Shown here: positions 4,855 through 49,743 of the stretch, one piece after another
Numbering within the stretch: position 1 is the first letter of the stretch
Layout: each line of letters starts with the position of its first letter
Virus record (IMG/VR): IMGVR_UViG_3300042922_000324
Coordinates: 1 to 52,129 of that record
Origin: a virus
Length of the DNA stretch: 52,129 nucleotides
Reading direction: 5' to 3' (one strand)
The notes under the pieces: generated by a model
Databases searched by the model: none
What the model saw: only the letters and a program-made list of their open reading frames with translations
Told to the model about the DNA's origin: nothing
Position numbers and translations under genes: made by a program

Positions 4855-4876
4855 TCAAACACTTCCTTTCCATTGT

Positions 4877-5147: not shown

Positions 5148-5158
5148 GGGGTAGAGGC

Positions 5159-5481: not shown

Positions 5482-5482
5482 A

Positions 5483-5914: not shown

Positions 5915-6678
5915 AGGAAAACGGAAAATTTAAGAAAAAGAAGGTGAAGTTTTCTCAAGTTAGTAATGTGGCTTTACATGATAGTTCTCTATCTCTTAAA
6001 GCAAAAGGGCTTTATTCAATAATACAGTCTTATATAACATTGGATAATTTTGTTCTTTATAAAAGAACCTTAAAAAAATCATGCAAAGGTGGCGAAAAAA
6101 TCTTTGAAGGAGCATGGAAAGAATTAAGGGATAAAGGATACTTGATACAAGAGAAACACAACTCTAAAGAAGGATTTTATTATATATATGATTTGCTTGA
6201 CGAACCTAAGACCCCAGACCCCCTTTTCGCAGGTGTGGGGAACCCAGATGTGGGGAATGGGGGGTGTATAATAAATACTTACTTAAATAATACTGATATA
6301 AATAATACTAAAAAGAAAAAGGGAGATTTTAAAAAATCTCTATATATAGGGTTACAAGAGTATATTGATACATTACAAGAAGATAACATTGATAATTCTA
6401 AGACAGAAAGTATTAAATATTTTATAAATAAAAGAAAAAGAATATTTAATCTAGATACAATGCTAACAACAAATGTATGGGAAAATATATATAATAACTG
6501 GTTTAATGTAAGTGATCCATACAGTGAGGTTACTATTGATTATGAATTAAGCATATTGATGATTGATAATTTCTTTCAAACACAATTTGAAAGAAAAGAT
6601 TGTGATTATTCAATACTCTTATACAGCAATAGTAGCGTTAAAAATATAAGATATCAAGAATGCAAAAATGAGGTGTAA
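5911..6678 (+). CDS. Replication-initiator-like winged-helix protein, 255 aa
   Basis: The first 95 residues (FSQVSNVALHDSSLSLKAKG, then LYSIIQSYI) are the N-terminal winged helix of phage replisome organizers and RepA_N-like initiators; ALHDSSLSLKAKGLY is the diagnostic segment. The central part is low complexity (poly-Asn/Lys). The C-terminal half is helical and unrecognised. Start GTG 5911 overlaps the previous stop and follows AGAGGGGG. A second organizer-like gene lies with the helicase loader at 48177, so this one may be a spare initiator or a regulator. Confidence 0.7.
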   Translation: MKENGKFKKKKVKFSQVSNVALHDSSLSLKAKGLYSIIQSYITLDNFVLYKRTLKKSCKGGEKIFEGAWKELRDKGYLIQEKHNSKEGFYYIYDLLDEPKTPDPLFAGVGNPDVGNGGCIINTYLNNTDINNTKKKKGDFKKSLYIGLQEYIDTLQEDNIDNSKTESIKYFINKRKRIFNLDTMLTTNVWENIYNNWFNVSDPYSEVTIDYELSILMIDNFFQTQFERKDCDYSILLYSNSSVKNIRYQECKNEV

Positions 6679-6680
6679 AG

Positions 6681-6836
6681 ATGCATGACTACAAGCTATT
6701 ATGCTCTACCAAAAGAACTGAATACTATATATCTAAAAATGGTATGCTTGCAAGAAAAACTAAAAACACATTTAAGGAACTTGGGTATATAGAAGATAAT
6801 ATGAGCTTATATAAAAAGCTATGTGAATCAATTTAG
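6681..6836 (+). CDS. Hypothetical basic protein, 51 aa
   Basis: The ATG 6681 follows GAGGTGTAAAG. The product is lysine- and tyrosine-rich (YKLLCSTKRTEYYISKNGML) and probably helical. It lies between the initiator-like gene and an XRE protein, with tight spacing. No family is recognised. Confidence 0.55.
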   Translation: MHDYKLLCSTKRTEYYISKNGMLARKTKNTFKELGYIEDNMSLYKKLCESI

Positions 6837-24453: not shown

Positions 24454-24524
24454 ACAAATAAAATTAATGTGTTATAATGTACATAAGTTAGTTTGATGAC
24501 ACCTCGCCAAAGGTGTTATTTTTT
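24451..24524 (+). other. Promoter directly followed by a terminator (about 40-nt transcript)
   Basis: TTTACA (24451-24456), a 16-bp spacer and TATAAT (24473-24478) point into ACACCT/AGGTGT (24499-24516) followed by TATTTTTTT. The resulting RNA would be only about 40 nt with no ORF. Either it is a tiny RNA or the promoter once served a gene displaced by the minus-strand antirepressor operon. Confidence 0.55.
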
Positions 24525-25282
24525 TATACTCCATATTTGATAGCCATTTCTTTGACTATTGTTATATAAATTTCTCTTAAGCGAGGCTCATTTTCTAAAA
24601 CGTCTAATATGTTAATTTTATCAATTTTGTTTTTAGCCATTCCGTTCTTTGCCGCCCTCTCCTTAAGATTTAGTATTAAAACACTTGGGCGGCATTTGCC
24701 ACGCTCTTTTAATGCGTTGTAAGCTTCATCTTTTGGCTTTTGGTAATCTTCAAGTTTCATGCCTATTTTGCTCAATATTTTATTAGTCTCTTTTCTCCAT
24801 TCTGCTTGAGGATTTATTAATATAACTTCTCTTATGGTTTGAATTTCTTGCTTAGTTTCTTGAAATATTTCTGTCATTTGTTTATTGTATATTTCCTGTT
24901 CTGCTATAGATTGGCTAAGCTTAAGAATTAATTGCGTTTCTAGACTTAATTTGGTAGTATCAATAGACGACTTTTTAAGTTTTTCTTCACAGTTGATAAA
25001 ATAATTTCTATACTCATGTGATTTTTCTGTTCGTGCCATCATAGCTATATGTTTTGCAAATTCTAAAGATATTGCAAAATCCATTGTTTCATTACCTTCC
25101 GCATTGTGCGGAACCCCTATCCAATCAATGTTTTCACTAAAATATTCGTTTTTCTCAACATTAGTTACGTACCACCTGGACCAGTCTGCTTTTCTCAATC
25201 CTAATCCTAAATATAATTCTTTTGCGCCAACTAATTGTTTACCATCTTTTTCAGTTATCTTTATTAAATCATTCATCTGCAT
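24524..25282 (-). CDS. AntA-type antirepressor with ORF6C domain, 252 aa
   Basis: Residues 15-100 (KQLVGAKELYLGLGLRKADW, then FSENIDWIGVP, and DFAISLEFAKHIAMMARTEK) are the AntA/AntB domain. The C-terminal 95 residues, from AEWRKETNKILSKIG, match the ORF6C domain found behind many phage antirepressor N-termini. Such proteins bind phage repressors and help induction. It is the last gene of a minus-strand operon driven from 26438. Confidence 0.85.
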   Translation of the reverse strand: MQMNDLIKITEKDGKQLVGAKELYLGLGLRKADWSRWYVTNVEKNEYFSENIDWIGVPHNAEGNETMDFAISLEFAKHIAMMARTEKSHEYRNYFINCEEKLKKSSIDTTKLSLETQLILKLSQSIAEQEIYNKQMTEIFQETKQEIQTIREVILINPQAEWRKETNKILSKIGMKLEDYQKPKDEAYNALKERGKCRPSVLILNLKERAAKNGMAKNKIDKINILDVLENEPRLREIYITIVKEMAIKYGV

Positions 25283-25298
25283 TCCTCCTGTTAAAATA

Positions 25299-25685
25299 TT
25301 AATCTACTAACTTTAGCAAAGCATCAAATAAAGGTTTATGCTCTTGCAAAATCTCGTTTAGCAAAGCTTCATCGTAATGAGCTATATAGTTGTAACTTCT
25401 TTCAAAAGCTATTTGACTATCTTTACCTATTAGAAAATAGTATCCGGCTCTTTTTCTCAATGTTATATCTAAAACAGACTTGCCATACTCAGGTTTATCT
25501 TTATAGTAATAACATTCAACTCTATTCCAACTTGTACAATCTCCATGAGCGCAATAAGTATTTGAATTATCTTTTCTCCTGCCGTCAAACTTTCTTACAC
25601 CAATACTTTCCATGTAGTTTTTAAATATTTCTGCCAATTGCTTAGTTTCGCAAACGTCTAATATTTTAAATAATTTATCTTTCAT
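25299..25685 (-). CDS. Hypothetical protein, 128 aa
   Basis: Mixed alpha/beta; residues 45-60 carry CAHGDCTSWNRVECYYYKD, a Cys/His cluster that could bind metal. The remainder is helical (ALLNEILQEHKPLFDALLKL). It lies 16 bp upstream of the antirepressor, with a good ribosome binding site. No family is recognised. Confidence 0.65.
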   Translation of the reverse strand: MKDKLFKILDVCETKQLAEIFKNYMESIGVRKFDGRRKDNSNTYCAHGDCTSWNRVECYYYKDKPEYGKSVLDITLRKRAGYYFLIGKDSQIAFERSYNYIAHYDEALLNEILQEHKPLFDALLKLVD

Positions 25686-25698
25686 GATGGCTCCTTTC

Positions 25699-26037
25699 TT
25701 ATAATGTTAATCCGGTATTATTTAGCTTTTTTACAAGGTCGTTTAATTTGTCATCTTTCTTTTGCGCCTTAGTTCTATTGTCATGCACCCAATAATCGCA
25801 ATTATTAAGCGGCGTTTTGTCCGTAGGTAAGTCTGGAACTTCTTTGCATACAATATATTCTTGTCTCCCAAACCCATAATCATCACTCGTATCGTCAAAT
25901 CCATCAAAGAAAATACAAGTTAAGCAAGTTTTCAATAATGGATTCTTCCAGCAAATATGCTCATGTTTGATACAGTTAACTTCTCTTATATATTCTCTTT
26001 TGCAATGGTCACATTTATATTTAGTTATCTTTTTCAT
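25699..26037 (-). CDS. Zinc-finger-like protein, 112 aa
   Basis: The N-terminus has a C2H2-like element (CDHCKREYIREVNCIKHEHI followed by C), then CLTC and two more cysteines farther on. This suggests one or two zinc sites, probably for nucleic acid or protein binding. The C-terminus is a charged helix. It belongs to the minus-strand antirepressor operon. Confidence 0.65.
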   Translation of the reverse strand: MKKITKYKCDHCKREYIREVNCIKHEHICWKNPLLKTCLTCIFFDGFDDTSDDYGFGRQEYIVCKEVPDLPTDKTPLNNCDYWVHDNRTKAQKKDDKLNDLVKKLNNTGLTL

Positions 26038-26049
26038 GGTATCTCCTTT

Positions 26050-26244
26050 CTATTTTGTTTTATAAATTATTAAAGCACCGCTAAATTCTTGAGCACTATA
26101 TCCATTTGATGATTCTGCTTGAAAAACTCCTACCGAATACTTAATATCAATAATTTCTAACTTACCATCATTTTCTTTTAACCATTTATTGATTTCATAG
26201 TCTTGCCCTTCTTGATAATTTAAAAATTCTTTTACTTGTATCAT
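26050..26244 (-). CDS. Cse60-like sporulation-associated protein, 64 aa
   Basis: MIQVKEFLNYQEGQDYEINK, then WLKENDGKLEIIDIKYSVGV and the ending GALIIYKTK follow the pattern of the Cse60 family, small proteins first noted as sigma-E-controlled in Bacillus sporulation and common in phages. Length fits. The biochemical role of the family is not known. Confidence 0.6.
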   Translation of the reverse strand: MIQVKEFLNYQEGQDYEINKWLKENDGKLEIIDIKYSVGVFQAESSNGYSAQEFSGALIIYKTK

Positions 26245-26255
26245 GATTTCACCTC

Positions 26256-26417
26256 TTATTTTTTATTTTGCTTGTCAATATATTCTTGTAACGCATCCCT
26301 AATATGTTCAGCTTGAGTTTTGCCATCTCTGCCACTCGATTTAGCTCCAACAGTTATGCTATTGTCTATAAGCCAGTCTCTTTGTTCTTTTGTCAGATAC
26401 ACTTGAGTTCTTTCCAC
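26256..26417 (-). CDS. Ribbon-helix-helix-like protein, 53 aa
   Basis: The GTG start lies behind AAGGGGGTGATACA on the minus strand. ERTQVYLTKEQRDWL is strand then helix, and KTQAEHIRDALQEYID is the second helix of a CopG/Arc-type fold. As the first gene after the boxed minus-strand promoter it is a candidate autorepressor of the antirepressor operon. Confidence 0.65.
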   Translation of the reverse strand: MERTQVYLTKEQRDWLIDNSITVGAKSSGRDGKTQAEHIRDALQEYIDKQNKK

Positions 26418-26437
26418 TGTATCACCCCCTTATATAC

Positions 26438-26479
26438 ATTATAATTAAACAACATATATTTGTCAATTAATATCGTACA
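26438..26479 (-). promoter_or_regulatory. Boxed promoter of the minus-strand antirepressor operon
   Basis: On the minus strand: TGTACGATAT (26479-26470), 3 bp, TTGACA, a 17-bp spacer, TATAAT (26443-26438). This is the strict box layout on the opposite strand and the best evidence that box orientation follows transcription. It is divergent from the promoters at 26510 and 26580. Confidence 0.85.
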
Positions 26480-26509
26480 TAATAACAAATATCTTACATA
26501 AAAAATTCG

Positions 26510-26538
26510 TTGACAGTTTACAAAAATGGTGGTAATAT
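26510..26538 (+). promoter_or_regulatory. Upstream promoter of the excisionase-like gene
   Basis: TTGACA, a 17-bp spacer and TAATAT (26533-26538). First of two tandem promoters towards 26641, and 30 bp from the divergent box. Confidence 0.65.
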
Positions 26539-26579
26539 TCAATTGTCCAATGTTGTCTAGAAAAAGCATATAATATGTA

Positions 26580-26608
26580 TTGACAATGGATAAATTTAAC
26601 CCTATAAT
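26580..26608 (+). promoter_or_regulatory. Downstream promoter of the excisionase-like gene
   Basis: TTGACA (26580-26585), a 17-bp spacer and TATAAT (26603-26608), a perfect sigma-A consensus without the box. It should be strong and is expected to be held by a repressor. Confidence 0.8.
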
Positions 26609-26640
26609 GGTAAATGTAGGGTGAGCAAGGAGGTTAACCA

Positions 26641-26805
26641 ATGGAATTTAAGACTAAAAAAGAAATTGCAGAAGAATTAAAATGCAGTGAAAAAACTGTT
26701 GACAGGCTAAGAAAGGAGGGACTGCCAAGCTATAATCTAGGCGGAAAATTACTTTTTGAAAAACAAGAAGTTTTTGACTGGATAATAAAAAACAAAAAAT
26801 CATAA
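26641..26805 (+). CDS. Excisionase-type helix-turn-helix protein, 54 aa
   Basis: FKTKKEIAEELKCSEKTVDR, then KEGLPSYNLGGKLLFEKQEV: a MerR-like winged helix (HTH_17) as in Xis and small phage regulators. It has two upstream promoters and a GCAAGGAGGTTAACCA site. Because it is far from the recombinase and faces the antirepressor operon, a regulator role seems as likely as directionality control of integration. Confidence 0.8.
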   Translation: MEFKTKKEIAEELKCSEKTVDRLRKEGLPSYNLGGKLLFEKQEVFDWIIKNKKS

Positions 26806-26911
26806 TAAAAGCCCCCTCAAGATTACTCTACAAGGGAGCTAGATACTATTAAGTACCCAAACATACTTATTGTATCATACTCCTACAAAGAAATCAAATT
26901 GGAGGCACTTT
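26806..26911 (+). other. Structured leader between excisionase-like gene and small ORF
   Basis: AGCCCCCT pairs with AGGGAGCT (one mismatch) around a 15-nt loop, and GATAC pairs with GTATC downstream around AAGTACCCAAACATACTTA. No T-tract follows, so it is not a normal terminator. It may be a structured leader or attenuator of the antirepressor gene. Confidence 0.35.
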
Positions 26912-27046
26912 ATGAAAATTAAATTTACCAACCAACAAGCTATGAACAAGAGATTTACCGAAACAATGGCAAAGCTTACCTTAAGGCTCATGGAAGAAAA
27001 ATCTTATATTTTATATCCGCTAGAAACAAATAAAAAGAGTGCATAG
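26912..27046 (+). CDS. Hypothetical small protein, 44 aa
   Basis: ATG 26912 follows TTGGAGGCACTTT. The sequence FTNQQAMNKRFTETMAKLTL is basic and helical, ending in YPLETNKKSA. It sits directly ahead of the BRO-type antirepressor, 11 bp away. It is not recognised. Confidence 0.55.
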   Translation: MKIKFTNQQAMNKRFTETMAKLTLRLMEEKSYILYPLETNKKSA

Positions 27047-27057
27047 GAGTGTGTATT

Positions 27058-27906
27058 ATGGAAAATAAAATTGAAGTTTACAAAAATGAGGAATTAGGAC
27101 AAATAAAGATTGCTTTTCTTAACAAAGAAATGGTTTTTAATCTTCACGATAGTTGTTGGAACTTAGGCTATACAACTAAAAACAATGAAGGCAAAACTTA
27201 TCTTTATAAAAGCAGAATAGAAAAAATATGTTCAAGCCTTGAAATAACTGGCGTTGACACAACGTCAACGGAATTAAAACCGATAAATACAAATACTGAC
27301 TTTGAAAACACATGGATAAACGAACAAGCTTTTTATGATCTATGTTTAGAAAGTAAAGCCAAAAACGCAAGAGCTTTCCGCGGATGGGTAACAGGTGAGG
27401 TTTTACCGTCTATCCGTGCCACTGGCAGTTATATCGCAAATAAAGCCTATACAGAGGCTTGTGCATCTACTACAGTACAAGACATCAAAATAATAGACGT
27501 TGCCCTCTCTACAGTCCTTAAAGTAATGACAGAGGCGCAAATAAATCCTATGTCGAAGCTAATGGCTGTCAAAGAGTTTTATAATAAAATAGGTTTAGAA
27601 ATACCTACTGGAGTAAATGAAAAAGAAAAATTCTATACAGCAGCAGAATTAGCGCAAATGTGTGGAGTTTATTACAAGAATGGTTATATTGCGAAAGATG
27701 CAATTTCAGCTGTTATAAATCAGTTGGATTTATCAGAAAGCGAAAAATTATACTATATAGATGAAAAGGGTAATAAAGCTATGAAGTGTAAAGAATCAGT
27801 GACTTTAAAAATTGCTGAATGGTTTGTTTATAGAGGATTCCCCAAAATAATCAGAGGCGAACAAATAGAACATGAAGTAATGTATAAATCTCCTAAAATA
27901 GAATAA
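27058..27906 (+). CDS. BRO-N antirepressor, 282 aa
   Basis: The first 120 residues (QIKIAFLNKEMVFNLHDSCW, WINEQAFYDLCLESKAKNAR, FRGWVTGEVLPSIRATGSYI) are the BRO-N domain. The C-terminal half (TAAELAQMCGVYYKNGYIAK) includes a second DNA-binding-like domain typical of phage antirepressors. It should disrupt repressor function. It is the second antirepressor in this block, on the opposite strand from the AntA protein. Confidence 0.9.
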   Translation: MENKIEVYKNEELGQIKIAFLNKEMVFNLHDSCWNLGYTTKNNEGKTYLYKSRIEKICSSLEITGVDTTSTELKPINTNTDFENTWINEQAFYDLCLESKAKNARAFRGWVTGEVLPSIRATGSYIANKAYTEACASTTVQDIKIIDVALSTVLKVMTEAQINPMSKLMAVKEFYNKIGLEIPTGVNEKEKFYTAAELAQMCGVYYKNGYIAKDAISAVINQLDLSESEKLYYIDEKGNKAMKCKESVTLKIAEWFVYRGFPKIIRGEQIEHEVMYKSPKIE

Positions 27907-27911
27907 TTGCT

Positions 27912-27935
27912 GGCGGTTAATATACCGCCTTTTTC
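27912..27935 (+). terminator. Intrinsic terminator
   Basis: GGCGGT/ACCGCC with a 6-nt loop and TTTTTC after the BRO gene; the next box follows 12 bp later. Confidence 0.9.
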
Positions 27936-27946
27936 TCAAAACATTT

Positions 27947-27988
27947 TGTACGTTATAGCTTTACAAATAATTCGATATATGTTAATAT
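27947..27988 (+). promoter_or_regulatory. Boxed promoter for the 28-30 kb operon
   Basis: TGTACGTTAT (27947-27956), 3 bp, TTTACA, a 17-bp spacer, TAATAT (27983-27988). It drives the genes from 28028 to the sigma factor at 30674. Confidence 0.8.
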
Positions 27989-28027
27989 TAGTTATGGACA
28001 TGGTGAACATGAAAGGAAGTGAATTAA

Positions 28028-28354
28028 ATGTCAAATGTAACATTAAATCTAGACTTATACGAATTTCTAAAAGATAGAGAAACCCATGTATATACAGAAA
28101 AAGGAGAAATTACAGCAATGGTTTGTATGTCTTTTTATGACCTAGACGAATTTATAAGAATTGTCGGAGAAAGATATTTTGATGATGACCCTGTGGAAGT
28201 AGTTTTACGCTCTAGATATATTTTCATTGAATTGAATGACGTATTTGAATATCAAGATAATACAGTTTTAGATTATAGAAAATGTTTCCCGGAATCAGAA
28301 ATTATTGAATGCTTACAAGAAGCCGAAGCTTATAAAAAGAATGTAAGGAAGTGA
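28028..28354 (+). CDS. Hypothetical protein, 108 aa
   Basis: The site AAGGAAGTGAATTAA precedes the ATG. It is acidic and alpha/beta (ITAMVCMSFYDLDEFIRIVG) with no metal or membrane motif. It is the first gene of the boxed operon that also encodes SSB and a sigma factor. Unknown family. Confidence 0.65.
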   Translation: MSNVTLNLDLYEFLKDRETHVYTEKGEITAMVCMSFYDLDEFIRIVGERYFDDDPVEVVLRSRYIFIELNDVFEYQDNTVLDYRKCFPESEIIECLQEAEAYKKNVRK

Positions 28355-28360
28355 GTTTAA

Positions 28361-28552
28361 ATGGTAGGCACAATTATAGATTATTCAAGCATTAAGGATT
28401 CAATGCACTTTGTTAAAATCGCAAGCGGTGAAAAGATAGTAACTTTGCATGTTGATAAGTTCCCAGACGTAAGACTTGGGGAACAGGTGGAGTTTGATGG
28501 TGAAAACTATTCTTTATTAAGTAAAGGAGATAATCATGGAAATAGGATATGA
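28361..28552 (+). CDS. Hypothetical protein, 63 aa
   Basis: A small beta-barrel-like sequence, IASGEKIVTLHVDKFPDVRL followed by GEQVEFDGENYSLLSK, similar in feel to phage OB-like small proteins but without a clear family. It overlaps the next gene by 17 bp. Confidence 0.6.
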   Translation: MVGTIIDYSSIKDSMHFVKIASGEKIVTLHVDKFPDVRLGEQVEFDGENYSLLSKGDNHGNRI

Positions 28553-28715
28553 AAAAGGAGAAAAATGCAATAGAAGTGATTGCGACGGGATACTAGAGGA
28601 ATATGATACAGACACAAGCTGTAGCTGTCATATAAGTCCTCCCTGTTCACATTGCGTTAATAGTAGGGCTTATTGTCCTAAATGTGGTTGGGATGCAAGA
28701 GAAGAAGAAACATAG
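28536..28715 (+). CDS. Double zinc-knuckle protein, 59 aa
   Basis: CNRSDCDGIL, then SCSCHISPPCSHC and YCPKCGW. Eight or so cysteines plus a histidine give two metal sites. The pattern SDCxGIL...CSCHISPPCSHC...CPxCGW recurs in many phage proteins of unknown function. The start follows AAAGGAGATAATC. Confidence 0.75.
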   Translation: MEIGYEKGEKCNRSDCDGILEEYDTDTSCSCHISPPCSHCVNSRAYCPKCGWDAREEET

Positions 28716-28820
28716 GAAAGGAATAAAACAAATCATAATAAGCAAAATTTCATTGAGAGGGGTTTGAGGCGCTTAAAGGGTAGTACAGAATTTGAAATAA
28801 GGACGAAGGAGGTTTTTGAA

Positions 28821-28961
28821 GTGATTAATGCAAGAGAATTGGTCAGCGAACTTGAAATGATGATAAAAATGTATGGTGAAGAATGCGAGATAGCAACGTT
28901 TTCTGGCAAACTTGATGTATATGATGAAAATGGAGATTATAGGCAAGAAATAGACATATAA
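28821..28961 (+). CDS. Hypothetical protein, 46 aa
   Basis: GTG 28821 follows AAGGAGGTTTTTGAA, the best ribosome binding site in the region; an in-frame TTG at 28764 would give a 65-aa product. The sequence INARELVSELEMMIKMYGEE followed by a short beta tail is common for tiny phage proteins. No function known. Confidence 0.55.
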   Translation: MINARELVSELEMMIKMYGEECEIATFSGKLDVYDENGDYRQEIDI

Positions 28962-29005
28962 GAGTTACGCAATGCAAGAATATTTTAAATCAAGGAGGCG
29001 CAATA

Positions 29006-29368
29006 TTGGCAAAGAATTATGAAGAAATAACAAGAAAGTTAGTTGCTGAATATTTGAAAGAAAAGACAACAATTCATTCTGTTGCAAGAATGTTTAAGCT
29101 TACTTATCAGACAGCTAGAAGTGGAATTTTAAGAATAGAGCGATATGATAAAGAGCTTTATGAAAAAGTAATTTTAAAGCTCAAGGCAAATAAAAGTAGT
29201 AGAGTAAGAGGCAAGTACAAAGAGACAATTTGGGACGAGTTTAAAGGTACTACACTTAAAAGAAATGATGTTATAGACATATATCTTATAAATGGCGGCA
29301 CAGATACTTTGCAAGTAAGTGAATTGCTGCAACAGGTGAGAAGCCATGGAGTTCAAATATTAGGATAG
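29006..29368 (+). CDS. SpoIIID-like helix-turn-helix protein, 120 aa
   Basis: Residues 1-60 (EEITRKLVAEYLKEKTTIHS, VARMFKLTYQTARSGI) share the SpoIIID arrangement of a helix, an HTH and a following helix (KVILKLKANKSSRVRGKYKE), although the RHxRGGxAT tail is only vaguely kept. The C-terminal 50 residues (VIDIYLINGGTDTLQVSELL) are an extra domain. TTG start after AAGGAGGCGCAATA. It probably binds DNA. A clear SpoIIID homologue exists at 47408. Confidence 0.6.
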   Translation: MAKNYEEITRKLVAEYLKEKTTIHSVARMFKLTYQTARSGILRIERYDKELYEKVILKLKANKSSRVRGKYKETIWDEFKGTTLKRNDVIDIYLINGGTDTLQVSELLQQVRSHGVQILG

Positions 29369-29378
29369 AGGTGTAATA

Positions 29379-29789
29379 ATGAATAAAGTTGTATTAATCG
29401 GAAGGTTAACAAAAGATCCAGAGTTGAAATTTACCCCAGGAAGTGGAACGGCTGTGGCAAGTTTCACAATAGCAGTAGACAAGCGAGTAAAAAACGATAC
29501 TGGGGAAAAGCAAGCTGATTTTATTTCTATAGTTGTTTGGGGCAAGACCGCTGAATATGTGGCTAATTATTCTGCAAAAGGCAAATTGATAGGTATAAGC
29601 GGCAGAATACAAACACGTTCCTATGATGCTAAAGACGGCACAAAGCGTTATGTTACGGAAGTTGTAGCGGAGGAAGTACAAATATTAGAGTTTGCTAGAA
29701 GTTCAAATAGCGGTAGTGGTAATAGTAATTCTAATGGTTTTAACATGGATGGCATGACAGAAATAGACGACGGAATTGTACCTTTTTAA
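29379..29789 (+). CDS. ssb: Single-stranded DNA-binding protein
   Basis: A 136-aa SSB with the OB fold: MNKVVLIGRLTKDPELKFTP, VASFTIAVDKRV, DFISIVVWGKTAEYVANYSA, a Gly/Ser/Asn linker and the acidic tip DDGIVPF that docks replication and repair proteins. It is complete. It is placed between tail genes, more than 14 kb from the recombination genes it would normally accompany. Confidence 0.95.
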   Translation: MNKVVLIGRLTKDPELKFTPGSGTAVASFTIAVDKRVKNDTGEKQADFISIVVWGKTAEYVANYSAKGKLIGISGRIQTRSYDAKDGTKRYVTEVVAEEVQILEFARSSNSGSGNSNSNGFNMDGMTEIDDGIVPF

Positions 29790-29801
29790 AGGAGTAAAGT
29801 T

Positions 29802-29933
29802 ATGAGCAATAAATTAGCATTTCTAATAACTATAACGGCTCTAGGGAGCTTCATATTATCAAGCATACATTTAGTAGCTTGGATAAGCGGAAAAGCTCAC
29901 AGTGGCAAAATATTGAAGAAAAGAGGGATTTAA
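29802..29933 (+). CDS. Small membrane protein, 43 aa
   Basis: ATG follows AAAGGAGTAAAGTT. One hydrophobic helix (LAFLITITALGSFILSSIHL), followed by a basic tail KAHSGKILKKRG. No family. It overlaps the next start by one base (TAATG). Confidence 0.6.
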   Translation: MSNKLAFLITITALGSFILSSIHLVAWISGKAHSGKILKKRGI

Positions 29934-30127
29934 TGAAGATAGAGAGAGAAAGTTATCACACAACCTTTGATAAGGAACTAAGAAAAGAGGTTAGTAAAAC
30001 CGCAATTGATTTAGGCATAGAAGCAAATCAAGTCCTAGAGATTGCTTATGTGTATTTTAAAACTAATTGCAATATAGAAGAAGCCAGAAGAATATTAAAA
30101 GAAAGGAATGTTATAAATGACCAATGA
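29933..30127 (+). CDS. Ribbon-helix-helix-like protein, 64 aa
   Basis: SYHTTFDKELRKEVSKTAID followed by GIEANQVLEIAYVYF is strand-helix-helix like Arc-type regulators; the C-terminus is helical. It overlaps the sigma factor by 11 bp, so the two are translated together and it might act as a partner or regulator of that factor. Confidence 0.55.
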   Translation: MKIERESYHTTFDKELRKEVSKTAIDLGIEANQVLEIAYVYFKTNCNIEEARRILKERNVINDQ

Positions 30128-30674
30128 AGAACTATTTGCAAAAGGAGATATTGAAGCATTATATAATAATAACTTAAAATATATGTTTAGCTTAAGATAC
30201 AAATTTAAAGGCATGGACTGGGAAGAATTACAATCTTTATGCAATTTAGGATTTTCAAAAGCAGTCAAGAAGTATTCTCCAGATAAAAATGTTAAATTTA
30301 TAACTTATCTTGCAATGTGCCTGCAAAATGAAGTATTTAAATATTTTAAAGATAGTAAGAAACACGCCAACTTAGTATATTTAAGCGACTCCGTAGTATC
30401 TTATAAAAATGGACAATCGCAGACACTTGAAGACACCCTAAGCATAGAGATTGATTTTTTAGAAAATTTTATTTGCAAAGAAGAAAACGAAGAATTAAAG
30501 AGCGCGTTGAACTGCTTAAGCAATAGAGAAAAAGCCGTAATGGATTTAGTATTAAGCAATAAAACTCAAGTTCAAATCAGTAAATTAATAGGAGTCCAGC
30601 AAGCAAGTATAAGCAGGATTCAAAAGAGATCAATAAACAAGATTAGAAGATTTTTAAATGGCTACAAAAATTAA
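30117..30674 (+). CDS. Phage-encoded sigma-70 family factor, 185 aa
   Basis: Residues 14-80 hold sigma region 2 (LKYMFSLRYKFKGMDWEELQ, LCNLGFSKAVKKYSPDKNVK, FITYLAMCLQNEVFKYFKDS) and residues 125-183 hold region 4 (LNCLSNREKAVMDLVLSNKT, QISKLIGVQQASISRIQKRS). Region 3 is short. It should guide host RNA polymerase to phage promoters or to sporulation-type host promoters. It is the last gene before the tape-measure operon, so it could switch on late genes with extended -10 promoters. Confidence 0.85.
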   Translation: MTNEELFAKGDIEALYNNNLKYMFSLRYKFKGMDWEELQSLCNLGFSKAVKKYSPDKNVKFITYLAMCLQNEVFKYFKDSKKHANLVYLSDSVVSYKNGQSQTLEDTLSIEIDFLENFICKEENEELKSALNCLSNREKAVMDLVLSNKTQVQISKLIGVQQASISRIQKRSINKIRRFLNGYKN

Positions 30675-41116: not shown

Positions 41117-41158
41117 AACAAGCTATACATATTTTTTATGTATAGCTTGTTGTTTTAT
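41117..41158. terminator. Bidirectional terminator
   Basis: A 15-bp perfect stem (AACAAGCTATACATA/TATGTATAGCTTGTT) with T-rich flanks on both strands. It ends the lysis operon on plus and may back up the recombinase transcript on minus. Confidence 0.9.
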
Positions 41159-41190: not shown

Positions 41191-41216
41191 AAAAATAAAA
41201 AGGGATAAACCCTTTA
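41191..41216 (-). terminator. Terminator of the recombinase gene
   Basis: On minus, AAAGGG-TTTAT-CCCTTT followed by TTATTTTTG, overlapping the recombinase stop codon. The 35-40 bp between this and the bidirectional terminator would be the most likely place for attP if it adjoins the gene's 3' end. Confidence 0.75.
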
Positions 41217-42806
41217 TAATCTTGGATGCACATCTAATGTTTCACCGTCCCAATATATCACTTCGACTAATTCATTTACAATTCTTTTCTTTTCAGTCAT
41301 AGTCAAAGATTGAAAGTTATTAATTAAATATTTAGTGGTATTATTAAATATTTCAAAGTTCATAGTTTTAATTACAGTATCATTTTTATCACTTTTTAAA
41401 AGTGTTATCTTTTTATTTAACTCTTTTATTTCCTCGTCTAACTTTTCTATTTTTTGCACAATGTATTTGCTTGCTGTAGAATTTTCAGCATCAATTAATT
41501 TTTCTGTTAATTTACCGATATCCTTAGATAATTTTTCAATTTGAGCTTGAAAATTTTTTATATCTTTTTCAATATTGTCAGTTTCTAATAACTGTTTATT
41601 TTGATTAAATAATTCTTTTGCTCCTTCATGGTCATAATATGTCCGTTTAAATTGCTCTATAAACAGTTTATCCGCTTGTATGCCTGCTATATTTTTAATG
41701 CTGCAGCTTTTGCCTTTGGTTAGAACTTTATTGGAACATCTATAATAATGATTTTTTCTTACTCCATTATCATAATCCGCAGTCACGCTAAAGAATCCGC
41801 CGCAATTACTGCAGCGAATTAATCCAGCAAGTAAAGCGTCCATTGCTTGCCCTTGTCTTGGAAACTTGTCTGCATTTCTTAAAAATCGTTCTTGTACATC
41901 AATCCACTTTTCAGATTCTATGCAGTATGAGTGCCTACCTATTGCAATTATCCACTCGCTAGTATCTTTATATACTATTTTCTTTTTAGATTGATCTTGC
42001 TTGTTATAGCACATAACACCATATTCGTTATTATCTCTAAATTCTTCAACAGAGTTACAAATTTGCATATTATTTTTCTTAGCATAATTATAAAAATTTA
42101 TATCAGCTTTACAATAAAACGGATTCGAAAGTATGCGCCTAACAGAATTTATATTAAATGTTTTACCATTTTCGGTTTTAATATCATTATCTATCAAATA
42201 TTTATTAGTGCTATTTAAACTGTTAAATTCTATATATTTTTTAAACATAATTTTTACTTTATCTATATTTGAATTATCTATATCTAAATAACATTCTTTC
42301 CCTATGCCTATTTTTTTATAGCCAAAAGGTGTATTCCCTCCTAACCATTTGCCGCTTTTAGAAAGCTCTAACATGTTGTCTCTAACTCTTTCTGCGATAG
42401 TTTCTCTTTCTAATTGTGCAAACACACCAGCAATATACAACATAGCTCTACCCATTGGCGAAGTGGTGTCAAATTGCTCTCTTATAGATATAAATTCTAT
42501 ATTGTACTCTTGCAAATCTTCAATTATTTTAGCAAAGTCGCCTATATTTCTGCTTATTCTATCTAATCTATAGCAGAGAATTATATTAAACATTTTATTT
42601 TTGGCATCCTTCATCATTTTAGAAAAGTTAGGGCGGTCAATATTGCCGCCGCTAAATCCTTCATCCTCATAAACAAAGATATCGTTTACTTTTTTATAGT
42701 TTTTATGTATGTATTCTTTACACATTTGAACTTGGTTTTCTACGCTATCTGAATTCTCTATGTATCTGCTTTTGCGACTATATATCGCTATGTTTAAATT
42801 ATCCAT
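41214..42806 (-). CDS. int: Large serine recombinase (integrase), 530 aa
   Basis: Integrates and, with a directionality factor, excises the prophage. N-terminal resolvase domain with catalytic Ser10 (IAIYSRKS), then ILCYRLDRISRNIGDFAKII and AMLYIAGVFAQLERETIAER. A Recombinase domain follows (GGNTPFGYKKIG, SVRRILSNPFYCKADINF). The zinc ribbon is at CSNCGGFFSVTADYD with later Cys residues, then a coiled coil (KDIKNFQAQIEKLSKDIGKL). Start ATG 42806 after AATGGTGAAAATT. All core elements are intact. Confidence 0.95.
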   Translation of the reverse strand: MDNLNIAIYSRKSRYIENSDSVENQVQMCKEYIHKNYKKVNDIFVYEDEGFSGGNIDRPNFSKMMKDAKNKMFNIILCYRLDRISRNIGDFAKIIEDLQEYNIEFISIREQFDTTSPMGRAMLYIAGVFAQLERETIAERVRDNMLELSKSGKWLGGNTPFGYKKIGIGKECYLDIDNSNIDKVKIMFKKYIEFNSLNSTNKYLIDNDIKTENGKTFNINSVRRILSNPFYCKADINFYNYAKKNNMQICNSVEEFRDNNEYGVMCYNKQDQSKKKIVYKDTSEWIIAIGRHSYCIESEKWIDVQERFLRNADKFPRQGQAMDALLAGLIRCSNCGGFFSVTADYDNGVRKNHYYRCSNKVLTKGKSCSIKNIAGIQADKLFIEQFKRTYYDHEGAKELFNQNKQLLETDNIEKDIKNFQAQIEKLSKDIGKLTEKLIDAENSTASKYIVQKIEKLDEEIKELNKKITLLKSDKNDTVIKTMNFEIFNNTTKYLINNFQSLTMTEKKRIVNELVEVIYWDGETLDVHPRL

Positions 42807-42951
42807 AATTTTCACCATTTTCCGAACAGACTTTTAACAATAATTCAATTTCCTTCTCATTAAGATAGACAAATTCCCCATTGACTCTGATTGCTAGAAC
42901 CCCTTTCATTTTGTCGTTTTCTTTGTTGCTTGTACCTTTTTGTACGGACAT
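42799..42951 (-). CDS. Hypothetical protein between repressor and recombinase, 50 aa
   Basis: The minus-strand ATG follows GCGGGGGTGTTTTT. KGVLAIRVNGEFVYLNEKEI followed by LLLKVCSENGENYG suggests a small beta-hairpin/helix protein. It overlaps the recombinase by 8 bp, so it may be a recombinase partner or directionality factor candidate, though no motif says so. Confidence 0.6.
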   Translation of the reverse strand: MSVQKGTSNKENDKMKGVLAIRVNGEFVYLNEKEIELLLKVCSENGENYG

Positions 42952-42965: not shown

Positions 42966-43379
42966 TTATTTGTCTTTGTCGTTCTTTTTATCCTCTTGTG
43001 CATTTGGTAAAAATTTAGATGTTAATATTTTTTTAAGTTCATCATGTTCTTTTATAATAGCGTACATTTGTTCGTATGTCAATCCGTTAGGAAAAACATG
43101 CTTTGACAAAAATAGGTCATATAATAACCCATCTTTTTCAATTGAATTGACAAGAATCTCGTCTTGTTCTTCAAGTTCTGTATCTCCTAGCAACCATGAT
43201 ATAGGCACGTTTAAAGCTGCAGCTATGTCCGCCGCTTTTTTCATACTAGGAACTGCTTTGCTATTTTCAACGTCGGATAAAAAACTTGCACTTACTTTGC
43301 TTTCTTCTCCCAACTTTCTTAGACTCCACCCTAATTCTTCTCTTTTGCTTTTCATTCTAATTCCAATTTCTTTAAACAT
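42966..43379 (-). CDS. CI-like XRE repressor, 137 aa
   Basis: Residues 5-65 (IGIRMKSKREELGWSLRKLG, EESKVSASFLSDVENSKAVP) are an XRE HTH. The C-terminal part is helical and charged, with no LexA-type peptidase; the last 13 residues are a Lys/Asp tail. It is expected to keep lysogeny by blocking the rightward early promoters and to be the target of the antirepressors. It is the first gene of the minus-strand lysogeny operon. Confidence 0.85.
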   Translation of the reverse strand: MFKEIGIRMKSKREELGWSLRKLGEESKVSASFLSDVENSKAVPSMKKAADIAAALNVPISWLLGDTELEEQDEILVNSIEKDGLLYDLFLSKHVFPNGLTYEQMYAIIKEHDELKKILTSKFLPNAQEDKKNDKDK

Positions 43380-44231: not shown

Positions 44232-45095
44232 ATGAGCGATTTAGTAAAAGCAAATAGCCAAAATAATGTTAAAGGTTTACTAGCAAATGTAGGCTATAAG
44301 AAAAGGTTTGAAGAAATACTTGGCAAGAAAGCTGCAGGGTTCATGAGTTCTTTGATTAATCTTACAAACTCTGACGTTAACCTTTCAAAAGCTGATGCAA
44401 ACAGCGTAATAGCATCCGCAGTAGTTGCAGCAACATTGGATTTACCTGTTGACAAAAATCTCGGATTCGCGTGGATATTGCCTTATGGTACTAGAGCACA
44501 GTTCCAATTAGGTTATAAAGGCTATATACAGTTAGCTTTAAGAACAGGTCAATATAAAAATATCAACGTAATTGAGATTTACAAAGGTCAATTAATAGAC
44601 TTTAATCCACTTACAGAAGAATTAAAACTTGATTTTTCTAAGAAGGAAAGCAACGAGGTAATAGGGTATGCAGCTTACATTAAACTTGTTAATGGATTTG
44701 AAAAAACTGCATATAAGCCTAAAGAAGATGTAATAGCTCACGCCAAAAGATTTTCTAAAACTTTTAATAATGGTCCATGGAAAACCGATTTCGATGCGAT
44801 GGCTAAAAAAACAGTATTAAAAAATACTTTAAGTAAGTGGGGAATACTCTCTATAGAGATGCAAACAGCAATTCAAGCAGACCAAGCAATAATTAAAAAT
44901 GATGTTGCGGAAGGTGCAGAGGTAAGCGCAGAAACTATTGAATATGTTGATAATGTTAAAGATACTGAATTTACTCCAGTTGATAAAGAACCAGTAACAA
45001 CTAAGCTAGACGGCAAATTTAAAAAAGCAGAGGAAAAAGAAGTAAAAGAAGAAAATATCTATGAAGGTACACCTTTTGATGGGGAGGAAAATTAA
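44232..45095 (+). CDS. recT: RecT single-strand annealing protein, 287 aa
   Basis: A phage recombinase that pairs complementary single strands, working with the exonuclease at 45751. Signature segments are DANSVIASAVVAATLDLPVD, GTRAQFQLGYKGYIQLALRT and GPWKTDFDAMAKKTVLKNTL. The C-terminal 50 residues are acidic. An HNH-like gene now separates it from its nuclease partner. Confidence 0.95.
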   Translation: MSDLVKANSQNNVKGLLANVGYKKRFEEILGKKAAGFMSSLINLTNSDVNLSKADANSVIASAVVAATLDLPVDKNLGFAWILPYGTRAQFQLGYKGYIQLALRTGQYKNINVIEIYKGQLIDFNPLTEELKLDFSKKESNEVIGYAAYIKLVNGFEKTAYKPKEDVIAHAKRFSKTFNNGPWKTDFDAMAKKTVLKNTLSKWGILSIEMQTAIQADQAIIKNDVAEGAEVSAETIEYVDNVKDTEFTPVDKEPVTTKLDGKFKKAEEKEVKEENIYEGTPFDGEEN

Positions 45096-45739
45096 TGAGT
45101 GGACCTATAAATTTGACGGGTCAAAAATTCGGAATGCTTTATGCTGTAAAGTGTGTTGGCAAAAATAAATGGGGGAACTTAGTTTGGCTTTGTAAGTGTG
45201 ATTGCGGTAAAGAAAAACTATTATCGTCTGGCGAATTAAGGAAAGGCATAGTTAAAAGTTGTGGATGCGCTAAAAACAAATTAATATCAAACTCTAAAAT
45301 AAAACATAATATGTCCGATACTAGATTTTATAAAATATGGGAAAGCATGAAAAGAAGATGCGACAATTGCAAAGACAATAAATTTAATAGGTATGGAGGC
45401 AGAGGAATAATATATCAAAACTCATGGAAAGAATTTAAAAGTTTTAAAATTGATATGTATGCTGATTATTTAATTCATGTTTTTAAGTTTGGCGAAAAAA
45501 ATACAACTCTTGACAGAAAAAATGTAGACGGGAATTATACTAAAAGCAATTGTAAATGGTCAACCGCTAAGGAGCAACAAAATAATAGATCAAACAACAC
45601 AACAATAACTATAGGAAACGAAATTTTAACTATAAGTGAGGCGGCTAATAAATTTAAAATATTGCAATCAACTTTAAGCTATAGGATTAGAAAAGGATGG
45701 GATATAAATAAAGCTATTTGCCCTCCATTAAAAAAATAA
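45095..45739 (+). CDS. Free-standing HNH-type homing endonuclease, 214 aa
   Basis: The N-terminal domain with CKCDCGKEKLLSSGELRKGI and SCGCAK is the zinc-binding segment of phage HNH/AP2-like homing endonucleases. The middle, KIWESMKRRCDNCKDNKFNR and ERYGGRGI-type YGGRGIIYQNSWKEF, with TLDRKNVDGNYTKSNCKW, is the H-N-H active-site part. A C-terminal HTH-like tail (ISEAANKFKILQSTLSYRIR) may bind DNA. Its start overlaps the recT stop. It appears to be a mobile insertion between recT and its nuclease. Confidence 0.85.
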   Translation: MSGPINLTGQKFGMLYAVKCVGKNKWGNLVWLCKCDCGKEKLLSSGELRKGIVKSCGCAKNKLISNSKIKHNMSDTRFYKIWESMKRRCDNCKDNKFNRYGGRGIIYQNSWKEFKSFKIDMYADYLIHVFKFGEKNTTLDRKNVDGNYTKSNCKWSTAKEQQNNRSNNTTITIGNEILTISEAANKFKILQSTLSYRIRKGWDINKAICPPLKK

Positions 45740-45750
45740 GAGGTGTTTAT

Positions 45751-46539
45751 ATGGAACTTTTAAAGCTCACAGATGATAATTATTTTTCGAAAGAGGCTCA
45801 TAAGCAATATGTTTCAGTCTCTCAATTCAAAGCTTTTTTAGATTGTGAAGCTGCGGCATTTGCCGAATTAAACGGAATTTGGGAAAAACCTCAAAAAGAT
45901 GTTTTTCTTGTAGGTAATTACGGACATAGTCATTTTGAAAATAGCTTGGATAAATTTAAAATTCAGCATCCAGAAATATTTACTAAGCAAGGAACTTTAA
46001 GAGCTGAATACAAGCAAGCTGATGAAATGATTAATGCTCTTGAAACAGATGAGATTTTTAAAAGCATATTTGTTGGAGAAAGCGAAATAATTTATACTGC
46101 TTTTTTATACGGCACATGGTGGAAAATCAAAGTTGATAAGCAAAATATAAAAGAAGGTTATTTTGTAGATTTGAAGTTTATAAAAGACTTTGAAAGGGTA
46201 TGGGACGGAAGTCAAAGAAAAAAAGTTACCTTTGTAGAAAAATACGGATATTTAATCCAGATAGCTATATATAGAGCGGTTATATGTGCTAATTTGAATA
46301 TTAACCCAGAAGATTTAGAAGCTTTCATTATAGCAGTAACAAAACAATCTCCACCAGACAAAATGGTTTTGAGATTTAATCCAGAGGATTATGAAATCGG
46401 CTTAAAAGTTGTAGAGAATAATATTGCACATATTTTAGATGTTAAAAGTGGCAAGGTTCCACCAACTAGGTGTGAAAAATGCGACTATTGCAGAGCTACT
46501 AAGAAACTTGATAGAGCTTATCATTATTCAGAATTATAA
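45751..46539 (+). CDS. RecE/AddB-like PD-(D/E)XK exonuclease, 262 aa
   Basis: VSVSQFKAFLDCEAAAFAEL at the N-terminus, GNYGHSHFENSLDKF and KDFERVW-preceding YFVDLKFIKDFE are the conserved nuclease elements. One Cys near residue 32 and three in RCEKCDYCRATKK at the end could bind a 4Fe-4S cluster, as in AddB-type nucleases. It resects DNA ends for RecT. Start ATG 45751 after AAGAGGTGTTTAT. Confidence 0.85.
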   Translation: MELLKLTDDNYFSKEAHKQYVSVSQFKAFLDCEAAAFAELNGIWEKPQKDVFLVGNYGHSHFENSLDKFKIQHPEIFTKQGTLRAEYKQADEMINALETDEIFKSIFVGESEIIYTAFLYGTWWKIKVDKQNIKEGYFVDLKFIKDFERVWDGSQRKKVTFVEKYGYLIQIAIYRAVICANLNINPEDLEAFIIAVTKQSPPDKMVLRFNPEDYEIGLKVVENNIAHILDVKSGKVPPTRCEKCDYCRATKKLDRAYHYSEL

Positions 46540-46781: not shown

Positions 46782-46910
46782 ATGAGATTAGTTTGCGCAG
46801 GTAAAATCACAAAGTGCGTTAAAGAAATTTCTTACGCCCCTAAGTTCGGAATAGCTGAACAAAATAAAAAGGAAGGTGAGAAGTTTGTTAATAAAAAGCT
46901 TACAAGGTAA
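46782..46910 (+). CDS. Hypothetical basic protein, 42 aa
   Basis: ATG follows AAAGGAGAAAAATT. MRLVCAGKITKCVKEISYAP, then a lysine-rich tail. The final 26 bp overlap the next gene. Its size makes it uncertain, though the ribosome binding site is good. Confidence 0.5.
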   Translation: MRLVCAGKITKCVKEISYAPKFGIAEQNKKEGEKFVNKKLTR

Positions 46911-47190
46911 ATTGTTTAAAGTAGATCATACGGAACTTTATATTAAACCTTTTTTCAAAGACGGAATTGCGAATGAGTATTCCATATGCACCAATGGAGG
47001 AAATGTTGAGATAATAATTGTTACTTATTCTGACAAAGAAATAGCTAAGCACATGCTTAAGCTGCTTGATTTATATAAAAAGCATCCTTGTGAAGTTAAT
47101 GTTTTGTCGGAAACTACAATTGCGCGTGATTTATGGTTAATAGCTTGTAGCAGATACAAAGTTGCATGTGAAAAGAAGGGAATAAAGTAA
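46885..47190 (+). CDS. Hypothetical protein, 101 aa
   Basis: TTG start after GGAAGGTGAGAAG. Alpha/beta sequence (LFKVDHTELYIKPFFKDGIA, IIIVTYSDKEIAKHMLKLLD) without known motifs. One-base overlap with the next gene. Found in an early operon with replication genes. Confidence 0.65.
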   Translation: MLIKSLQGKLFKVDHTELYIKPFFKDGIANEYSICTNGGNVEIIIVTYSDKEIAKHMLKLLDLYKKHPCEVNVLSETTIARDLWLIACSRYKVACEKKGIK

Positions 47191-47411
47191 TGGTTGGAAA
47201 TAGAATACCTTTTAATGATGTTTTAAAGCTCCAGGACGACACTTTAGTGTACTTGCTAGGGGATACGTCCCCTTTAAGATACATTGAGCATGTAGGCGAT
47301 AAAATAACACTTCACAGGCTATGCAGTGATGACAGAATATTTTTTAATAAAACTACAGAAAAATTATTAAATCTAAAAATATATGAGTGGAAAGTGGAGG
47401 GATTAAATTGA
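47190..47411 (+). CDS. Hypothetical protein, 73 aa
   Basis: TAATG overlap with the upstream stop. Beta-rich (LQDDTLVYLLGDTSPLRYIE, DKITLHRLCSDDRIFF). It overlaps the SpoIIID start by 4 bp and so is coupled to it. No family is recognised. Confidence 0.65.
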   Translation: MVGNRIPFNDVLKLQDDTLVYLLGDTSPLRYIEHVGDKITLHRLCSDDRIFFNKTTEKLLNLKIYEWKVEGLN

Positions 47412-47656
47412 AAAATGAAGTGGTCCAAGAAAGAGTTTTAAAGGTTGCTAAATTTACAATACTAACCAACAGCACTATAAGAGCTACTGCAAAAATGTTC
47501 GGGGTTAGTAAGAGCACCATAGGGATGGATTTAAGCAAGAGAATAAATATCTTGAATCCAAAGCTTGCAGAGGAAGTTAAAAAAGTTTTGGATAATAACT
47601 TTAGTGAGAAGCATGTTAGAGGTGGCAATGCTACAAAACTAAAATACAAAAGTTAG
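47408..47656 (+). CDS. spoIIID: SpoIIID homologue, 82 aa
   Basis: SpoIIID is a mother-cell transcription factor of endospore formation. The HTH at residues 22-45 (STIRATAKMFGVSKSTIGMD) and the hallmark tail EKHVRGGNATKLKYK (67-81) are both present; length is close to the bacterial protein. TTG start after TGGAGGGATTAAA. A phage copy could reprogramme a sporulating host or regulate phage genes by binding SpoIIID-type sites. The next 142 bp carry an operator-like inverted repeat. Confidence 0.9.
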   Translation: MKNEVVQERVLKVAKFTILTNSTIRATAKMFGVSKSTIGMDLSKRINILNPKLAEEVKKVLDNNFSEKHVRGGNATKLKYKS

Positions 47657-47712: not shown

Positions 47713-47776
47713 TGTACGCTATAACTTAATTATTTTATAAAAAGTGTAGCAAAATGTTAAGTTATAGCGTATAATA
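47713..47776. promoter_or_regulatory. Paired inverted boxes flanking a promoter region
   Basis: TACGCTATAACTTAA (47715-47729) and its exact reverse complement (47757-47771) face each other across 27 bp. The left copy is part of an exact box TGTACGCTAT at 47713. The right copy runs into TATAAT (47771-47776), the -10 for the gene at 47799. Two 15-bp perfect arms imply a dimeric or looped regulatory protein, perhaps the HTH protein encoded immediately downstream. Confidence 0.75.
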
Positions 47777-47798: not shown

Positions 47799-47966
47799 TT
47801 GATAAAGATAGCAGAACTTACAAAGGAACTTGATGTTCACGTAAATACGGTATACAAGATGATTAAACAAGGTATGCCACATTATAAACTTGAAAAAGAT
47901 TATAGGTTTGATATCGAAGAGGTTAAAAATTGGCTAAAAGAAAGAAATAATAAAAGAGGTGATTAA
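47799..47966 (+). CDS. Excisionase-type HTH protein, 55 aa
   Basis: TTG start behind GAGGGTGATAAG. IKIAELTKELDVHVNTVYKM followed by KQGMPHYKLEKDYRFDIEEV is a MerR-like HTH_17 domain. It stands directly behind the paired inverted boxes and is a candidate binder of them. It could also be the recombination directionality partner, though it is not next to the recombinase. Confidence 0.8.
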   Translation: MIKIAELTKELDVHVNTVYKMIKQGMPHYKLEKDYRFDIEEVKNWLKERNNKRGD

Positions 47967-48176: not shown

Positions 48177-49055
48177 ATGGCACAGCGCAGGATGTTTTCT
48201 TTAAAGATTATAGACACAGATTTATTTTTAGATATGCCGATGACGACTAGATTACTATATTACGATTTAAACATGAGAGCTGATGACGATGGGTTTGTCG
48301 CATCACCTAAAAAAATACAAAGAATGGTTGGTTGTAGCGATGATGATCTTAAATTATTAATAGCAAAGAAATTTATAATTCCTTTTGAAAGTGGAGTCTG
48401 CGTAATAAGGCACTGGAGAGTCCACAATTATATTCAACCAGACAGATACAGTTCTACGATGTATCAATACGAAAGAAATATGCTTGAGAATGAAAATGGA
48501 ATTTATAATATTGTCCAATGTGAAGCGGAAACAAAATGTATACAAAATGTAGTACAAAATGTAGACAATATGTCTTACAATTTGGATACACAGGTTAGGT
48601 TAGAGTTAGGTAAGAGTAAGGATATAGATAAAGAAATAAATACTGATAATTATCCAGACGAATTTCAAGTGTTTAACTTCTGGAATGAATCTAAAGCTGG
48701 AATGAATCATAAAGAACTAGCACCATTTTTAAAAATGATTACTACAGCTATAAAAAAGTACAAGTTAGAAAATGTCATAACAGGAATAAAAAGATTATCT
48801 ATTGCTTATAACGATAAGTCATATTTCTATAAACAAAATTGGAACTTAGGTAAATTTTTAAAACAAGGCAATGGAATATCAAGCTGGATAAATGATGCAG
48901 AGTATTGGAATGCTTATGTAAAAGCTAAAGACTCCAAAGGGGGAGAATATGGAGGATTTAATTCGCAGAATAATGGAGGTAGCAAAGGCAAGTGGGCAGG
49001 ATACAAGCCGCCAGAACCAACAATCACAAACACAGATGAAACAGGAATTATATAA
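48177..49055 (+). CDS. Phage replisome organizer, 292 aa
   Basis: RMFSLKIIDTDLFLDMPMTT followed by RLLYYDLNMRADDDGFVASP is the classic N-terminal winged helix of DnaD-like phage initiators. The C-terminal region (FNFWNESKAGMNHKELAPFL, KLENVITGIKRLSIAYNDKS) resembles a DnaD C-terminal domain, and a Gly/Asn-rich tail follows. It should open the origin and recruit the helicase through the loader, whose gene begins inside this one. Confidence 0.85.
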   Translation: MAQRRMFSLKIIDTDLFLDMPMTTRLLYYDLNMRADDDGFVASPKKIQRMVGCSDDDLKLLIAKKFIIPFESGVCVIRHWRVHNYIQPDRYSSTMYQYERNMLENENGIYNIVQCEAETKCIQNVVQNVDNMSYNLDTQVRLELGKSKDIDKEINTDNYPDEFQVFNFWNESKAGMNHKELAPFLKMITTAIKKYKLENVITGIKRLSIAYNDKSYFYKQNWNLGKFLKQGNGISSWINDAEYWNAYVKAKDSKGGEYGGFNSQNNGGSKGKWAGYKPPEPTITNTDETGII

Positions 49056-49743
49056 ATGCAATATTTGCAAAGATACTGGGTGGATTATGCAGGAGCAAAC
49101 TGAATCACAACCTACAATGAAAAGGTGTGAATGTTACAAGATGGAAAAGGCTAAAAGATTGTGGATTAACGCAGGGATAAATATTGAGCAATCTAGGCAG
49201 ACTTTTAGCGCATACACAACATGGAACGAAACATCAAGGAGAGCAAAAGAAACCGCCATAAGCTACTGCAATAATTTTGACAAGATAAAAAGCACTCGAA
49301 ATAATAGCATAGCTTTTATAGGTCAAGTTGGGAGTGGTAAAACACATTTAAGCTTAGCTTTAGCGATAAATTTTCTTAGCAAAGGATTAGCAGTAGTGTA
49401 CATGCCTTACAGGGATGTTATAACTAAAATTAAGCAAAACATGATTGATGAAGAATACTACAAGAAAACTTTAAGCAAATTTCAAACTTGTAAAATATTA
49501 CTTGTCGATGACTTGTTTAAAGGCAGCATGAAAAATGGAAAACCAAATGAAACTGACATAAATATAATGTTTGAAATTATAAATTATAGATATTTAAACA
49601 ATCTGCCGTTAATAATTAGTTCGGAATACATAGCAGATCAATTACTTGATTTTGACGAGGCTGTGGGAAGTAGAATTTTACAGATGTGTAAAAGCTTTAC
49701 TGTACAAATTGAGGGGAGGGAAAACAATTATAGATTGAAATAG
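48949..49743 (+). CDS. DnaC/DnaI-like helicase loader, 264 aa
   Basis: AAA+ ATPase with Walker A GQVGSGKTH (125-133), Walker B KILLVDDLF (182-190) and a sensor-like region YLNNLPLIISSEY. The N-terminal Cys37/Cys40 and Cys60/Cys62 form a zinc site as in DnaI. It overlaps the replisome organizer by 107 bp in another frame, with AAAGGGGGAGAAT before the ATG, so they are coupled. It loads host or phage helicase at the origin. Confidence 0.9.
   Translation: MEDLIRRIMEVAKASGQDTSRQNQQSQTQMKQELYKCNICKDTGWIMQEQTESQPTMKRCECYKMEKAKRLWINAGINIEQSRQTFSAYTTWNETSRRAKETAISYCNNFDKIKSTRNNSIAFIGQVGSGKTHLSLALAINFLSKGLAVVYMPYRDVITKIKQNMIDEEYYKKTLSKFQTCKILLVDDLFKGSMKNGKPNETDINIMFEIINYRYLNNLPLIISSEYIADQLLDFDEAVGSRILQMCKSFTVQIEGRENNYRLK

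Follow-up and report, generated by a model that had tools for sequence, protein, structure and literature searches.

A phage gene for a SpoIIID-family protein with a changed recognition helix, located in an early operon

For phage-borne spoIIID, PMC5027557 cites Zimmer 2002. Carriage of this gene by phages has long been taken as a sign of a phage "affecting sporulation", and no test of this was found in the literature. Phages phi6013, phiCP51 and phi3626 encode both spoIIID and sigE, as stated in PMC5027557, and spoIIID is listed among the sporulation genes carried by gut phages (Schwartz 2023, PMC10294663). Phages SPO1 and SP10 encode sporulation-like sigma factors (PMC9429907).

The window analyzed here is the whole of a viral record of 52,129 nt (~52 kb, 32% GC; IMG/VR record IMGVR_UViG_3300042922_000324). 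It has a 127-bp direct repeat at its ends, and therefore represents a complete phage genome. Its genes include those for terminase, portal, capsid and baseplate proteins, a serine integrase and a repressor, and it is a complete temperate phage with a Clostridium-like spore-former as the probable host. The RecT protein is up to 68% identical to RecT in Clostridiales prophages; a comparison of the major capsid protein with 224 Clostridiales genomes gave no strong match. The phage is similar to phi3626, phiCP51 and phi6013, to the gut phages and to the phages behind PHROG 11726, in combining a SpoIIID homologue with a sigma-E-like factor in what is probably a temperate clostridial phage. It differs from these phages in its ~52 kb size, serine integrase and contractile-tail genes, in a recognition-helix variant not seen in the other copies examined, and in that its sigma gene is distant from spoIIID, in the tail region. 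As in SPO1 and SP10, a sporulation-type transcription factor is found in a phage, but here it would be an HTH accessory regulator and not a sigma factor, and it is known from sequence alone. Phage spoIIID genes are thus already known, and what this locus adds is an unusual recognition helix and a cis element.

Family, fold and recognition helix

The gene at positions 47408–47656 (plus strand) encodes an 82 aa protein, P0001, with an HTH at residues 24–49. It has a TTG start and a GGAGG at approximately 47396–47401, 6–7 nt upstream of the start. The start overlaps the stop of a 73-aa ORF that has no known family (47190–47411, plus strand; 96% identical in the sister phage, L002), and translational coupling between the two is likely. 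The C-terminal end of the protein is RGGNATKLKYKS.

P0001 is a genuine relative of the SpoIIID family, as seen by profile, fold and alignment. The Pfam SpoIIID model (PF12116) gives 102 bits against a cut-off of 27 and covers profile positions 2–79 of 82. PHROG 11726, annotated as 'sporulation stage III protein D', matches at positions 8–86 of 89 with 97 bits and E = 8.7e-28. B. subtilis SpoIIID (2l0k) is the sole close solved structure when the PDB is compared by sequence (E = 4.9e-22), and it is also the sole PDB match with E < 0.001 to the AlphaFold model (pLDDT 91), with a TM of 0.76. The initial annotation described a SpoIIID homologue with its hallmark motif intact. This stands for the family and for the basic RGGNATKLKY tail, which is unbroken. 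The HTH, which it also considered kept, is present but has Gly39-Met40 in place of His-Lys, and the protein scores 103.8 bits with the NCBIfam SpoIIID equivalog TIGR02844, below the cut-off of 111.5. The sister-phage protein reaches 103.9 bits with this model and host SpoIIID controls 159–160.

The recognition helix reads SKSTIGMD in P0001, compared with SKSTxHKD in host proteins. Gly-Met following SKST(V/I) is common to P0001 and the sister phage and is absent from the other copies examined. At these two positions His is present in 72/72 and Lys in 70/72 distinct chromosomal SpoIIID sequences, while viral or second copies keep His in 24/36 and Lys in 21/36; these tallies are counts and not a test, as the host set was assembled by similarity and its members are related. 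Many other phage SpoIIIDs retain HKD and could bind host sites.

P0001 is thus like the chromosomal SpoIIIDs of B. subtilis, C. difficile and the Clostridiales in its fold, HTH scaffold, SKST and RGG-ATKLKY motifs, with 50–59% identity. It is unlike them in the Gly-Met helix, the sub-equivalog score, a long branch in the tree, and a location in a phage early operon and not in a sporulation locus. A comparison with the L002 gene gives a dN/dS of 0.13, which indicates purifying selection.

Origin of the gene and its place in the early operon

A search of ~600 Clostridia genomes (226 from the order Clostridiales and 391 from the class, the two sets overlapping) gave no match to P0001 above 59% identity. 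The L002 copy is 94% identical. A maximum-likelihood tree was made with 88 sequences and 82 columns, a short alignment that leaves many forks unresolved. It groups the window and L002 copies with that of a Clostridium prophage (L101) with support of 98/84, and this group sits inside a 25-row Clostridiales clade containing 17 hosts (support 95/89). The branch of the phage group is several times longer than the host SpoIIID branches. Nesting within Clostridiales chromosomal SpoIIIDs shows that the gene came from a host-type SpoIIID. A phylogeny against host SpoIIID had been proposed in the initial annotation, with a generic phage HTH lineage lacking a SpoIIID-like DNA-binding preference as the refuting result; a generic phage HTH origin is rejected by the nesting. 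The tree requires several separate origins for the viral and second copies, and on these sequences phages have probably acquired SpoIIID more than once. Faecal fragments labeled 'Bacteriophage sp.' (L004–L009) may be bacterial chromosome and were grouped separately.

In the window, a large serine integrase (41214–42818, minus strand) and a phage repressor of the lysogeny switch (42966–43379, minus strand) precede the early operon, from which the repressor gene diverges. The operon has, on the plus strand, RecT recombinase (44232–45095), a PDDEXK exonuclease (45718–46539), a 104-aa ORF with no known family (46876–47190), the 73-aa ORF and the P0001 gene. These are followed on the same strand by a small HTH_17/excisionase-like DNA-binding protein (47799–47966), a DnaD-like helicase loader (48177–49055) and a DnaC/IstB-like ATPase (48949–49743).

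A similar placement recurs in prophages. Two or more SpoIIID matches are present in ~20/226 Clostridiales genomes, and the second copies are mostly prophage; in one of these genomes (G018) the matches appear to be parts of one gene divided between two contigs. At least 12 of 20 second copies that were read with their flanks, mostly from the order Clostridiales with two from elsewhere in the class, lie close to phage genes. The prophage loci L114, L117 and L056/L103 have the order serine integrase, repressor, homologue of the 104-aa ORF, SpoIIID, and then DnaD/DnaC; in L113 SpoIIID is immediately before DnaD, and L112 is a further prophage with early-module synteny. The 104-aa ORF homologues in L056/L103, L114 and L117 are 36–45% identical to that of the window. 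Both the purifying selection and the repeated occurrence in early modules speak for a functional phage gene.

In several Clostridium prophages, a member of the 104-aa ORF family immediately precedes the phage SpoIIID gene or is close to it. A tandem pair of SpoIIID paralogues occurs in Clostridia genome G551 (L119, positions 3784–4532), where no phage gene was recognized nearby.

A conserved palindrome downstream of the gene

A perfect 15-bp inverted repeat, TACGCTATAACTTAA and TTAAGTTATAGCGTA with the arms 27 nt apart, lies at positions 47715–47771. Its second arm enters a TATAAT at 47770–47775. Approximately 80 bp around the palindrome are nearly identical in L002, and the flanks on both sides diverge. 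It is one of two long perfect inverted repeats in the whole phage; the only other (at least 13 bp), at 41117–41151 downstream of the integrase, is probably a terminator. A search of 2.9 million viral contigs located the palindrome in the sister phage alone, and none is present beside other phage SpoIIIDs.

As RNA the palindrome would fold far better than shuffled sequences (z = -4.1), so the segment may serve the replication module either as an operator/promoter or as an RNA hairpin. The arms were also considered as a regulon-wide operator and this was rejected, as the exact core is found nowhere else in the phage. Host SpoIIID is a monomer on DNA and its sites are non-palindromic. This property, together with the restriction of the palindrome to the phage pair, suggests that the element may instead serve a different regulator or form a hairpin. 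P0001 may bind it, and the HTH_17 protein encoded from 47799 is an alternative binder.

Possible functions and the phage sigma factor

The reading that ranks first, with about an even chance of being correct, is that SpoIIID was captured from a host and repurposed as a phage transcription regulator. A clostridial temperate phage lineage would have taken the gene from a Clostridiales chromosome and later changed its use. P0001 would be made upon induction or infection, outside mother-cell control, as suggested by the early recombination/replication operon and the overlap with the upstream ORF. It most likely works like SpoIIID, as a small DNA-binding protein in which an HTH is combined with a basic helix at the C-terminus, although its recognition helix is altered. 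It would probably switch phage transcription, e.g., at the downstream palindrome/promoter ahead of the DnaD/DnaC genes. This reading draws on the SpoIIID family and fold, the HK to GM change in the helix, the early-module synteny, the dN/dS value, the long branch nested among hosts with nothing closer than 59% in Clostridia genomes, the conserved ~80-bp element and the lack of enrichment of SpoIIID, sigma-E and sigma-K sites in the phage. Points against it are the confinement of the palindrome to the phage pair, the HTH_17 protein as an alternative binder, and the many other phage SpoIIIDs that retain HKD. The protein may also have side effects on host sporulation. A broader proposal, that clostridial temperate phages repeatedly took SpoIIID, often with a sigma factor, as an early switch of changed specificity that in this genus would act at the palindrome, is doubtful.

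The initial annotation proposed that the phage manipulates sporulation of the host or uses it as a timer, and manipulation ranks second, although it is unlikely. A phage SpoIIID made at the wrong time and place would take or compete for host sites and either derail or promote spore formation, which would keep the host productive or lodge the prophage safely in the spore. The descent of P0001 from host SpoIIID, with tail and fold retained, fits this proposal, and the initial suggestion is partly supported in that the protein is no generic phage HTH. Phage sigF/sigG homologues expressed in B. subtilis cut spore yield by up to 99%, as cited in PMC10294663, whose Table 1 shows an enrichment of sporulation genes, spoIIID among them, in the phages of spore-forming hosts. 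However, two near-invariant helix positions are changed in P0001, the gene lies in an early replication operon and shows accelerated divergence, the spore-forming host of the window phage is a probable assignment, and phage SP10 deleted for its sporulation-like sigma factor g120 showed no observable change in virulence (PMC9429907). Regulatory sites in the phage genome likewise do not favor sporulation control. The canonical C. difficile SpoIIID box occurs at 13 sites compared with 10.8 expected and is not enriched, GGACAAG (a B. subtilis-type core) occurs once compared with 3.5 expected, and sigma-E and sigma-K promoter patterns are not enriched; the shortness of the motifs makes these counts a weak test. 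The helix change, the host-derived phylogeny and the position in the replication module together make the question of a host versus a phage target testable.

Two further proteins cited in support of sporulation control are weak in this respect. The product of 29006–29368 (plus strand), P0002, had been called a second SpoIIID-like protein, and this is not upheld: it is a weak SpoIIID-like HTH protein in the profile search, with 14.5 bits in Pfam SpoIIID against the cut-off of 27, no GGNAT and a tail shortened to VRG-KYK, and it has no match among annotated phages. The Cse60-family small protein P0003 (26050–26244, minus strand), encoded in a divergent operon with an AntA anti-repressor, exceeds its profile cut-off by a narrow margin (26.2 bits against 20.7). 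The sigma factor is confirmed. P0004 (30117–30674, plus strand) is a small sigma-70-family factor with regions 2 and 4 (PHROG 351) that clearly passes the profile cut-off; SigK and SigE are its nearest host models, with scores far below their equivalog cut-offs.

Ranked third, and improbable, is a switch in two parts in which the SpoIIID-like protein and the phage sigma factor together activate a later class of phage genes, in the manner of SpoIIID and sigma-E/sigma-K in the mother cell. The joint presence of SpoIIID and sigE in phi6013, phiCP51 and phi3626 (PMC5027557) is consistent with such a pairing. Of 17 prophage SpoIIID loci, 7 have a small sigma-70 gene no more than 1.5 kb away, compared with 1/21 RecT loci (Fisher p = 0.013), in a small set with related loci counted singly. 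The RecT control loci are from prophages of the same bacterial order; they replaced a viral-contig RecT control because viral contigs include other hosts. At 3 kb the association is weaker (p = 0.078), which, with the few and related loci, counts against the pairing. In the window itself the P0002 and sigma genes are no more than 1.2 kb apart, ahead of tail genes, but the P0001 gene is 17 kb from the sigma gene and only the weak P0002 is close to it. In a phage from the metagenome of the sister phage (L058, positions 5977–6821) the SpoIIID and sigma ORFs overlap.

A decaying or neutral passenger acquired by illegitimate recombination, which would fit the sub-equivalog score and an evolution faster than that of host SpoIIID, is already disfavored and very improbable given the intact ORF, good ribosome-binding site, dN/dS of 0.13 and recurrence of the same position in different prophages.

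Positions 24524–30674 of the window form a regulatory island amid tail genes, with the AntA and Cse60-like operon on the minus strand and a second anti-repressor (27049), P0002 and P0004 on the plus strand. P0002, the Cse60-like ORF, AntA and P0004 are each 100% identical in the sister phage. An AT-rich IMG/VR contig (L059, 25% GC) has, at positions 4205–6237, a tandem pair of sigma genes followed by a SpoIIID-like ORF, RNase H and PhoH-like genes, and two more sigma-like ORFs are present on its opposite strand.
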